DNA from: a virus
Virus record (IMG/VR): IMGVR_UViG_3300020438_000019
Coordinates: 16,894-80,893 of that record
DNA length: 64,000 nt
Strand: one strand, 5' to 3'
Shown: one piece after another, positions 49,045-51,899 of the stretch
Numbering within the stretch: position 1 is the first letter of the stretch
Layout of the letters: every line of letters begins with the position of its first letter
The notes under the pieces: model-generated
Databases searched by the model: none
Seen by the model: only the letters and a program-made list of their open reading frames with translations
What the model was told of the DNA's origin: nothing
Program-made: the position numbers and the translations under genes

Positions 49045-49563
49045 GTGGCCTCTGATTGGTATAAAGAGCAACTAACAAATAGAAACTATCTTTCACCTCT
49101 TGGTTTCCAATTAGAATTGGAACTTTTTAAAGGGGTGGATTTCTTTTGTCAGGCAGCGAATATACCAGATATTCAAATGCCTGTTACAGAAGTACCTTCA
49201 AGGTTCCGTGATCTACCTATCATACCTGGTGGTGGAGTTACCTTTGGTGATTTTCAGGTGAGGTTCATCATAGATGAGTCTCTAGTTAACTACAACTCAA
49301 TCCATAAATGGATTCGTGGTAATGGTAATGCTGGTTCTAGTGAAGCAGTTCCAGATAATCCAGAGTACAGTAGAGGTCAGTTGTTAGTTACCACTTCAAA
49401 TTTCAACACAAACTTTATTGTTAATTTTACAGGACTATTTCCAGTCGCTCTTACAGGAGTGGACTTTGATGCATCATTAGACCAACAGGAATATTTGACT
49501 GCAGATGTTACTTTTAAGTATCATTTCTATACTATAACTGATCGATCATTAAATGAACTTTGA
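49045..49563 (+). CDS. gp3: Tail tube terminator gp3
   Basis: A 172-residue protein (T4 gp3: 176) that caps the tail tube when it has reached full length and is followed by gp15. The family pattern includes GFQLELELFKGVDFFCQAAN, FGDFQVRFIIDESLVNYNSI and a strand-rich C-terminus (YLTADVTFKYHFYTI), which resembles the tube protein fold. GTG 49045 is preferred over TTG 49039; a GGGAAG sits just before. It overlaps uvsY by 11 bases, an arrangement I recall from other marine T4-likes. Confidence 0.85.
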   Translation: MASDWYKEQLTNRNYLSPLGFQLELELFKGVDFFCQAANIPDIQMPVTEVPSRFRDLPIIPGGGVTFGDFQVRFIIDESLVNYNSIHKWIRGNGNAGSSEAVPDNPEYSRGQLLVTTSNFNTNFIVNFTGLFPVALTGVDFDASLDQQEYLTADVTFKYHFYTITDRSLNEL

Positions 49564-50029
49564 AACTCTTCGTAATCGCTTTGATACAATTAGATCTGAA
49601 TGGGAAGTTGATAGTGAAGTAGACTTCCAATTTAAAGATAAAGCATATAGTACTGACTTGGGGAAGTTAGCATTAGAAATCCCCTTTCAGCATAATAAAT
49701 ATTTAAACCATTACATTGACTTACAACAGATCAAAACATCTTTAGAATTTGAGGTTCGTAAATTAGTCAAGGATAAAAAAGAATACTACGGTGGCGAAGC
49801 AGATGCTAAAACATATGCTGAGAAACCTTTTGGTACTCATATAAAAACTCAAGATAAGATGAAGACTTATATTGAGGCAGACACTGATGTTATCAATGTC
49901 GAAGCAAAGGTAAAGTATGTTGACCAGATGCTTTATTTTCTTGACTCTGTTATGAGACAGGTATCTAATAGAGGTTTCCAGATCAAGTCAGCAATTGAAT
50001 GGGAAAAATTTATCAATGGTACTGACTAA
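49553..50029 (+). CDS. uvsY: Recombination mediator UvsY
   Basis: A 158-residue protein (T4 UvsY: 137). It shares the order KLVKDKKEYYGGEADAKTY, then MKTYIEADTDVINVEAKVKY, then RQVSNRGFQIKSAIEWEKF with T4 UvsY. UvsY loads the UvsX recombinase onto single-stranded DNA coated with gp32. UvsX is not in the window. It is mostly helical. The gene overlaps gp3, and its stop shares a base with the uvsW start. Confidence 0.88.
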   Translation: MNFETLRNRFDTIRSEWEVDSEVDFQFKDKAYSTDLGKLALEIPFQHNKYLNHYIDLQQIKTSLEFEVRKLVKDKKEYYGGEADAKTYAEKPFGTHIKTQDKMKTYIEADTDVINVEAKVKYVDQMLYFLDSVMRQVSNRGFQIKSAIEWEKFINGTD

Positions 50030-51483
50030 TGACTGATATAGTTGTTAAGAAAAAGAACGAGGTATACATTAAGGTTGAGGGTGATGCACACGTTCACCAT
50101 GAGTTAGCAGATTATTTTTCATTTGAAGTACCTGAAGCAAAATTCCTAAAAAGAAATCCCAAGTACAAGTACTGGGATGGAATGATACGTCTGTATTCAC
50201 CTGCAACAGGTGAGTTGTATGGTGGTTTGTATGACCATCTAAGTCTATGGGCTAGTGAACACAACTATAATATCTTTCAAGATTTTAATGATAGGTATGG
50301 TTCTGTAAAAGAAGTTAATACTTTTGTTTCTCCACCTGCTGTTAAGGTATTCATGGATAAGATATCCAAGGTCATGCCTAGACCATACCAATACAAAGCA
50401 GTCTATGATGCAATAAGAAACAATAGAAAGTTATTTCTTTCTCCTACGGGATCTGGGAAGTCTCTTATGATCTACTCCATAGTCAGATACTATGCTGCCA
50501 CCTCCAAGAAGATACTTATAATCGTCCCAACTACTTCCCTTGTTGAGCAGATGGTCAGCGACTTCGTTGACTACGGATGGGATGCTGAGTCTCATATTCA
50601 TAAAATATATGGTGGTAAGGATAAAAATACAGATAAAGATATCATCATATCTACATGGCAGTCAATCTACAAGTTTCCTAAGAGGTACTTTGATGACTTT
50701 GATTGTGTGATTGGAGACGAAGCACATTTGTTTAAGAGTAAATCCCTTACAGGGATCATGACCAAGTTACACAACGCTAAGTATAGATTTGGGTTCACTG
50801 GTACTTTAAACGGTACACAGACCCATAAGTGGGTCTTAGAAGGTCTTTTTGGTGCATGTGAGCAGGTGACTAAGACAGATGAACTGATTAAGTCTGGTTA
50901 TCTTTCCAAGTTTAGGATAAAAGTCCTTCTTTGTAAACACAACCCACAGCATTTCGACACATATCAAGATGAGATGGAGTATCTTGTTAGTCACAAGGGT
51001 AGGAATAACCTCATCAAGAATCTAGTTAAAGATATAGATGGTAACACCCTTGTCTTATTTAATTATATCGAAAAACATGGCGAACCGTTGTATGAATTGA
51101 TAAATAATTCTATAGATCCTAATAGGAAACTATTCTTTGTGCATGGTGGTACTGATGTACAGGACAGAGAAGAAGTTAGACAACTTACAGAGGAGCAGGA
51201 AAATGCGGTTATCATTGCGAGCTATGGTACTTTTAGTACTGGGATTAACATTAAGCGGTTGCACAACATTATTTTCGCCTCCCCCTCCAAGTCCAGGATT
51301 AGGAATCTCCAGTCCATCGGCAGGGTCTTAAGGAAAGGAGAAGGTAAAGAGATAGCAACACTATATGATATTGGTGATGATATAGGTGGACAGAACTACA
51401 CCCTTAAGCATCTGAATGAGAGAGTAAACATTTATTTGGAAGAAAACTTTAAACATGAAACTATAAAGGTAAATCTACGATGA
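50029..51483 (+). CDS. uvsW: Helicase UvsW
   Basis: A 484-residue SF2 helicase (T4 UvsW: 503). Walker A LSPTGSGKS is at residues 137-145, DEAH at 230-233, the FGFTGTL motif III near 262, and motif VI is LQSIGRVLRKGEGK near 425. The N-terminal 100 residues hold a small beta domain (VEGDAHVHHELADYF, then KYKYWDGMIRLY). UvsW remodels branched and R-loop DNA, turning off origin-dependent replication when late genes are expressed. A different-frame lipoprotein-like ORF lies inside it at 51203-51331. Confidence 0.95.
   Translation: MTDIVVKKKNEVYIKVEGDAHVHHELADYFSFEVPEAKFLKRNPKYKYWDGMIRLYSPATGELYGGLYDHLSLWASEHNYNIFQDFNDRYGSVKEVNTFVSPPAVKVFMDKISKVMPRPYQYKAVYDAIRNNRKLFLSPTGSGKSLMIYSIVRYYAATSKKILIIVPTTSLVEQMVSDFVDYGWDAESHIHKIYGGKDKNTDKDIIISTWQSIYKFPKRYFDDFDCVIGDEAHLFKSKSLTGIMTKLHNAKYRFGFTGTLNGTQTHKWVLEGLFGACEQVTKTDELIKSGYLSKFRIKVLLCKHNPQHFDTYQDEMEYLVSHKGRNNLIKNLVKDIDGNTLVLFNYIEKHGEPLYELINNSIDPNRKLFFVHGGTDVQDREEVRQLTEEQENAVIIASYGTFSTGINIKRLHNIIFASPSKSRIRNLQSIGRVLRKGEGKEIATLYDIGDDIGGQNYTLKHLNERVNIYLEENFKHETIKVNLR
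51203..51331 (+). CDS. Possible embedded lipoprotein (Rz1-like spanin) inside uvsW
   Basis: A 42-codon frame in the +1 register of uvsW. GAGGAG (51190-51195) lies seven bases before ATG 51203. The peptide has a basic start (MRLSLR), a hydrophobic core (AMVLLVLGLTL), a lipobox LSGC at residues 17-20, and a short Pro-rich mature tail (TTLFSPPPPSPGLG). This is the form of Rz1-type outer-membrane spanins, which are usually embedded in another gene. In the uvsW frame the same bases code for conserved motif V/VI. It may be chance; no inner-membrane partner is identified. Confidence 0.35.
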   Translation: MRLSLRAMVLLVLGLTLSGCTTLFSPPPPSPGLGISSPSAGS

Positions 51484-51899
51484 TGGAAGAAGAATTTTTC
51501 GCCACGATTAAACTATCTTCAGGAGAAGAGATCATATCTAGGGTAGCTTATGTACCTGATGATGAGATGGTCATCATTCATGATCCTTTAAAGGTAGAAC
51601 ATATTACTCATCAAAAGAAAAAAGTAACAGTAGAAGGATTCCATCTTACTGAATGGATGCATTCTACTTTTGATGATATGTTTTTTATACCTAAAACTCA
51701 GATACTTACTATGACTGAGTGTGATAAAAAGGTTGTAGCATTTTATATAAAATGTTTATCAGATAATAAAAAAGCAAAAGACTTAGCAAGATTCCAGAAC
51801 CAAACCAAGAATGGTAATCCACAAAAAGTACTACCTGGTTACATAGGATCAGTTAAACAATCTAGAATTATGTTGGAGAAGATATTCAAAACCAGTTAA
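51480..51899 (+). CDS. LSm-like protein of unknown function
   Basis: A 139-residue protein. Residues 5-45 (ATIKLSSGEEIISRVAYV, then DDEMVIIHDPLKVEHI) have the strand order of an Sm-like domain, and a second beta part follows (FHLTEWMHSTFDDMFFIPKT). The last 30 residues are basic. It starts inside the uvsW stop (ATGA). The N-terminus resembles that of the minus-strand protein at 30433-30924, so they may be distant paralogues. RNA binding is possible; no evidence beyond the pattern. Confidence 0.65.
   Translation: MMEEEFFATIKLSSGEEIISRVAYVPDDEMVIIHDPLKVEHITHQKKKVTVEGFHLTEWMHSTFDDMFFIPKTQILTMTECDKKVVAFYIKCLSDNKKAKDLARFQNQTKNGNPQKVLPGYIGSVKQSRIMLEKIFKTS

Follow-up and report, generated by a model that had tools for sequence, protein, structure and literature searches.

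An apparent lipoprotein gene overprinted on uvsW in a subset of marine cyanophages, probably acting as an o-spanin

The Rz1 lipoprotein of phage lambda is encoded in an embedded +1 frame and combines a 19-residue signal sequence with a Cys at position 20 and a Pro-rich domain (PMC5295617). The o-spanin PseT.2 of T4 is larger, structured and devoid of a Pro-rich region (PMC6139136). A survey of 677 phages found 91 without spanin, 20 of which infect Prochlorococcus or Synechococcus; P-SSM7 and most of the cyanomyoviruses examined are listed as spanin-less, and fragile host outer membranes are one explanation offered for such phages (PMC6139136). Here we describe a 42-codon frame within the helicase gene uvsW of a marine cyanophage. 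It shares with lambda Rz1 the layout of a small +1-frame lipoprotein inside another gene, the 19-residue signal, Cys20, a Pro-rich mature domain and an expected late expression. In contrast to Rz1, its host gene is a DNA-repair helicase and not an i-spanin gene, its mature part counts 23-31 residues across alleles instead of 40, a partner was not found, and there is no significant sequence homology. With the T4 spanins PseT.2/PseT.3 it has in common a T4-like phage background and a location outside a lysis cassette, but it is smaller than PseT.2, it is Pro-rich, and no match between the two was found. Unimolecular spanins such as T1 gp11 also have an outer-membrane lipoprotein anchor; the embedded peptide, however, has no hydrophobic segment C-terminal to its Cys, thus lacking their C-terminal transmembrane domain, and is far too short to cross the periplasm.

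The window, that is the whole stretch of DNA analysed, comprises 64,000 nt of the record IMGVR_UViG_3300020438_000019 (record positions 16,894-80,893), and positions given below count within it. The features of the locus are collected in Table 1. The neighbours of uvsW are uvsY-like, GC139-type and gp55 genes. The segment of uvsW that lies under the embedded frame encodes an almost invariant protein sequence including helicase motifs V/VI. All the features that the sequence-only reading had listed for the frame (register, ATG, a ribosome site 7 nt upstream, signal peptide, LSGC lipobox, Pro-rich tail) are present in the sequence; 6 of the 22 residues following Cys20 are Pro. In a six-frame scan of the window and of the whole 80.9 kb record, this was the sole ORF combining a signal peptide with a lipobox. 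Its counterpart is likewise unique of its type in the single-cell record AG-345-O18 (74 kb), and in P-SSM7 (182 kb) the embedded ORF alone passes a strict signal-peptide/lipobox scan. Synonymous shuffling of the window genes gave an expectation of 0.03 lipoprotein-like ORFs per window, and none of 20,000 synonymous shuffles of the uvsW segment reproduced the ORF.

Table 1. Features of the uvsW locus, in window positions.
Feature	Position	Strand	Remarks
uvsW helicase gene (host frame), 484 aa	50029..51483	+	PHROG phrog_16 DNA helicase, 2e-122; Pfam matches ResIII, DEAD, UvsW_N, Helicase_C
GATAAATA, T4-type late promoter-like octamer (NATAAATA) inside uvsW	51099..51106	+	matches the T4 late promoter core
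Recombined tract bringing the class I allele (approximate)	51100..51390	+	synonymous divergence low to L007, high to L002
Shine-Dalgarno-like GAGGAG	51190..51195	+	spacing of 7 nt to the ATG of the embedded ORF
Embedded putative lipoprotein ORF, 42 codons + TAA	51203..51331	+	+1 frame of uvsW; ATG 51203-51205, TAA 51329-51331; translation MRLSLRAMVLLVLGLTLSGCTTLFSPPPPSPGLGISSPSAGS
Predicted signal peptide, 19 residues	51203..51259	+	purifying selection against +1-disruptive synonymous changes, codons 397-404
G/C-ending codon run in the uvsW frame, codons 405-421	51244..51294	+	coincides with the lipobox and Pro-rich stretch
Lipobox LSGC	51251..51262	+	Cys20 (predicted acylated) at 51260-51262
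Mature domain, 23 residues, Pro-rich (PPPPSP)	51260..51328	+	Pro count averages 3.93 in unbiased class I alleles, against 0.23 after codon shuffling
Gene 3' of uvsW	51480..51899	+	'methylamine utilization' annotation in relatives; same predicted late transcript; no i-spanin

In order to compare this region among relatives, we gathered 386 uvsW segments, 332 of them distinct, by two DNA-pattern scans, three protein-guided scans and phage-collection records. Alleles carrying a +1 lipobox Gly-Cys, as defined by codons 409-411 only, were named class I (154 of the 332 distinct segments); 44 of them were found without codon-specific patterns and are referred to as unbiased. Class II alleles encode nearly the same protein sequence in this region. 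Class I alleles come from metagenomic contigs, marine single cells and the isolate P-SSM7; isolates that carry the ORF are few, and among named records it was read directly in P-SSM7 and in the single cells AG-341-P01, AG-345-F15, AG-345-O18 and AG-345-P14, and closely matching DNA is present in the single-cell record AG-345-D19. The predicted product has 42-53 residues across class I, with a mature part that is often Pro-rich, and the tail is 22 or 29-30 residues long in 152 of the 154 alleles. In the window, the third positions of the uvsW frame at about 51280-51334 are 50% C and 33% G, as compared with 19% each in the whole gene. The sequence-only reading took such a run of G/C-ending codons as a sign of constraint from the second frame, and the comparison of alleles bears this out: the run is limited to class I, over the lipobox and Pro-rich stretch, where GC3 at codons 405-421 is 0.777 (class II 0.315; rest of the gene 0.213).

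Loss of the Cys codon in close relatives with an intact uvsW had been named beforehand as evidence against a gene, and taken literally that loss is seen. In the nearest uvsW genes (L002-L005, 83-89% nucleotide identity) the ATG and the hydrophobic stretch are kept, but the embedded frame has Phe instead of Cys, few Pro and no stop codon at the position seen in the window. Our first view was accordingly that the lipoprotein look arose by chance, and it was dropped once the mosaic structure of uvsW and the frame-specific selection described below became apparent. Up to about codon 355 the window gene resembles L002, whereas between about codons 360 and 450 it is closer to L007, a gene with the lipoprotein frame; the edges of this tract are approximate since divergence was scored in 30-codon bins, and upstream of about codon 360 the divergence pattern is reversed. 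The nearest relative by gene is thus not the nearest relative of the embedded segment, and on this mosaic pattern the window copy of the ORF came in by recombination. Another recombined tract, judging from its identity, is found at codons 120-149 (50389-50478, Walker A region), which show zero codon differences with L012/L013 despite an overall identity of 76% between the genes. Among the unbiased alleles, the Cys is found in 46 of 62 with an intact h-region and in 17 of 158 without; it is absent from several h-intact lineages, among them the nearest relatives of the window. Losses of the Leu-G codon (6 lost and 6 kept) were not clearly less frequent than those at control Leu sites (56 lost and 20 kept), these being small numbers. 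From the distribution of alleles, the embedded gene is patchy among relatives and would come and go as uvsW alleles recombine; recombination and patchy presence explain the absence of the Cys in L002-L005 without refuting the gene. Retention of the start, which the earlier reading also asked after, holds within class I, as does that of the ribosome site and the open frame.

We then analysed which synonymous changes of uvsW are tolerated in the +1 frame. Changes synonymous in uvsW were counted by parsimony on trees over codons 397-404, where the +1 signal peptide has its hydrophobic core; a change was called disruptive when it introduced a charged or polar residue, Pro or a stop in the +1 frame, and identical amino acids at other positions of these genes served to derive the expected values. 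In class I, only 7 of 128 changes were disruptive vs 41.7 expected, whereas class II showed 117 of 280 vs 117.2 expected (Fisher 1e-15 between classes); these counts come from parsimony on partly recombining sequences and from related, non-independent alleles, class I being defined partly by its Cys codon. A blind sliding scan of 407 windows along uvsW, with a separate tree and controls, had its lowest class I value precisely at codon 397 (7 disruptive changes where 55.8 were expected; z -9.7), where the +2 frame gave z -0.6 and class II z -1.8. The 44 unbiased alleles alone again had their minimum at codon 397 (z -5.5). The stop codons follow the same pattern. No +1 stop-creating event occurred before codon 433 in class I; at sites 393-395 there were 0 of 46 such events vs 25 of 91 in class II, and at sites 413, 423 and 429, 0 of 42 vs 23 of 83. 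Class II is itself partly depleted of stops in this region (16 per 30 codons where 44.6 were expected), so that only the difference between classes counts. Beyond stops, the tail is weakly constrained in class I (142 vs 161 expected), and individual Pro are weakly conserved and often lost. Synonymous diversity, which had been expected to drop over the frame, shows a modest dip, with windows at about 0.65-0.75 of the expected value. A plain synonymous-diversity test alone would miss the gene, because the signal lies in which synonymous codons are allowed.

The translation start is conserved as well. A correctly spaced Shine-Dalgarno core followed by ATG is found in 43 of the 44 unbiased class I alleles, while codon shuffling predicts 8.5; in class II the corresponding numbers are 36 of 157 and 26.3 expected. 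Two start modules occur, each with its own ribosome site: GAGGA...ATG, placed 19 codons before the Cys, and AGGGAGATTACAGAAAATG, placed 22 codons before it and leading to MK[K/R/G/T]MQLLLPVM. P-SSM7 has ATA in place of the usual ATG, and an upstream ATG gives MKLIKLLSPVM.

These data bear on the view that there is no gene, the lipoprotein look being a chance by-product of the codons for helicase motifs V/VI within one haplotype recombining among phages. Such a by-product is conceivable in a near-invariant segment of a clearly mosaic gene, where the +1 frame becomes hydrophobic through T-ending codons and rich in Pro and Ser through C-ending ones. Yet the class I synonymous events are many, 128 in 8 codons, and are biased by +1 chemistry, a bias missing from class II despite its nearly identical protein sequence; the ribosome site with ATG, the stops and the GC3 pattern are specific to class I, and codon shuffles do not reproduce the ORF. 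We consider this explanation very unlikely. Owing to the frame-specific purifying selection, the conserved start and ribosome site and the lack of stops, the ORF is, with high confidence, a real lipoprotein gene overprinted on uvsW.

About 100 nt upstream of the embedded ORF, uvsW contains the octamer GATAAATA. Its codons are nearly fixed: Ile357 is ATA in 152 of 152 class I and 157 of 157 class II alleles, and Asn358 is AAT in 152 of 152 and 156 of 157. No further copy of the late-promoter octamer was found in codons 60-300 of all uvsW genes examined, and in the window the motif occurs on the coding strand only (11:0), mostly just before genes. This near-perfect conservation at synonymous sites extends to all cyanophage uvsW genes examined, with or without the lipoprotein ORF, and the octamer is the deepest synonymous dip in uvsW. 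Being equally conserved in class II, it would serve downstream genes too and not the embedded ORF alone. T4 uvsW is itself expressed from a late promoter (PMC3016281); in the window, a second NATAAATA at 49694-49701, inside the gene preceding uvsW (49553-50029) and 335 nt upstream of the uvsW start, is probably the late promoter of uvsW. The proximity of this true DNA element raises the alternative that the constraint acts on DNA or RNA, as a promoter, a hairpin or a recombination site, and not on a +1 peptide. The allowed variants nevertheless track the chemistry of the +1 residue and not base identity. In class I, Gly399 and Gly404 use GGC, GGG and GGT and never GGA, which would give a +1 Glu; Thr400 and Thr403 stay ACT (+1 Leu) with one exception among mapped changes; and Leu410, a site that served to define the class, accepts both TTG and CTG (19 changes), the Cys always being kept. 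As stops, start and ribosome site are in addition conserved together, a purely nucleic acid constraint appears extremely improbable.

What the overprinted gene does was addressed by homology searches. Searching phage records with the embedded peptide by tblastn returned little, given its short length and variability; Pfam gave no usable match, and literature searches brought up nothing pointing to a lipoprotein embedded in uvsW. Against PHROG, several Rz-like spanin families were among the best-scoring matches (E 0.0016-0.4, mostly via the signal peptide), while two Cys-less control peptides gave no spanin match. The main rival to an o-spanin role is another late envelope lipoprotein, either a superinfection-exclusion or receptor-masking protein of the T5 Llp type or an LptM-like late envelope factor. 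A gene that is present patchily, often lost and spread by recombination would suit such an accessory factor, and the failure to find an i-spanin is in line with it too. The peptide shares signal peptide and lipobox with LptM and other small outer-membrane lipoproteins, but the NCBIfam LptM match is weak (E 0.0064-0.15), below cut-off and confined to the signal peptide. The Pro-rich mature part, the late promoter and the repeated PHROG spanin matches point instead to lysis, and a receptor blocker would be expected to have a much longer mature part. We therefore regard a real lipoprotein other than a spanin as possible but rather unlikely.

The partner of an o-spanin would be an i-spanin, a type II membrane protein. 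None adjoins or overlaps the embedded ORF, uvsW being a helicase with no clear candidate nearby, and topology revealed no convincing i-spanin in the cyanophage genomes examined, among which AG-345-F15 was covered in part and the window record is incomplete. Since that record is a fragment, the lack of other lysis genes in it, remarked upon in the sequence-only reading, says little. An 87-residue protein of P-SSM7 (NC_015290 138046-138309), which has a single membrane segment at its N-terminus and a tail rich in Pro and is conserved in several cyanophages, is a weak candidate for the inner-membrane partner. Because an i-spanin was searched for near uvsW and not found, we describe the product as working like an o-spanin and not as a proven member of that group. 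The proposal of an Rz1-like lipoprotein gene thus stands as regards the overlapping gene, strongly supported by selection, start, ribosome site, stops and tail. Its o-spanin part is plausible: the geometry, the late promoter, the spanin-less status of P-SSM7 and the weak PHROG matches speak for it, the missing i-spanin against it.

We also considered whether every class II phage carries a separate o-spanin; this complementary distribution was not clean. Small separate lipoproteins are present in P-SSM4 and S-PM2; in P-SSM2 and P-HM2 nothing, or nothing but spurious ones, turned up. P-SSM4, listed as spanin-less, encodes at NC_006884 17030-17143 a small lipoprotein, MSFGVLLICFISFGINACTAPVTDPTPNPSTLWKLKKN, annotated as a hypothetical protein, overlapping cpeT and also present in P-SSM3 and P-RSM3; it looks like an o-spanin candidate. 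Apparently stand-alone lipobox proteins are found in S-PM2 (NC_006820 117831, about 131 residues) and AG-345-F15 (MH319749 101312, about 65 residues), cyanophages listed or expected to be without spanins. Syn33 (NC_015285 138236) and Syn9 (NC_008296 141541) have similar lipobox ORFs (..CILILSCSTISRPKPYS.. and ..CILILSCNTISRPRHSS.., respectively) at related genome positions, a pair that may represent another embedded lipoprotein or chance.

We infer that a subset of marine cyanophages carries an overprinted lipoprotein gene that most likely acts as an o-spanin, a statement that as a whole we hold to be probable. Late in infection, a gp55/gp33-type late RNA polymerase would read through uvsW or start at the internal GATAAATA, and ribosomes would start at the embedded Shine-Dalgarno-ATG. 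The product would be processed by Sec and lipoprotein signal peptidase to a lipopeptide of 23-31 residues, often Pro-rich, anchored in the outer membrane. This lipopeptide would most likely be the o-spanin (Rz1-like) half of outer-membrane disruption, acting with an inner-membrane partner encoded elsewhere. On balance, though with less assurance, we favour the broader idea that a large group of T4-like cyanophages has its missing outer-membrane lysis protein in an o-spanin overprinted on uvsW, with a late promoter within that gene, a partner elsewhere, and gain and loss by recombination. If the o-spanin role is true, this would to our knowledge be the first case of a spanin subunit nested in an unrelated gene.

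The embedded ORF is a clear natural example of how a core replication gene can be overprinted, one in which relatives show both gain and loss. Gene callers reject nested frames, so lysis genes can stay hidden inside unrelated genes. As P-SSM7 is on the spanin-less list and carries the ORF, it provides a direct, testable o-spanin candidate. If the product is an o-spanin, the way in which abundant ocean cyanophages burst their hosts becomes testable.
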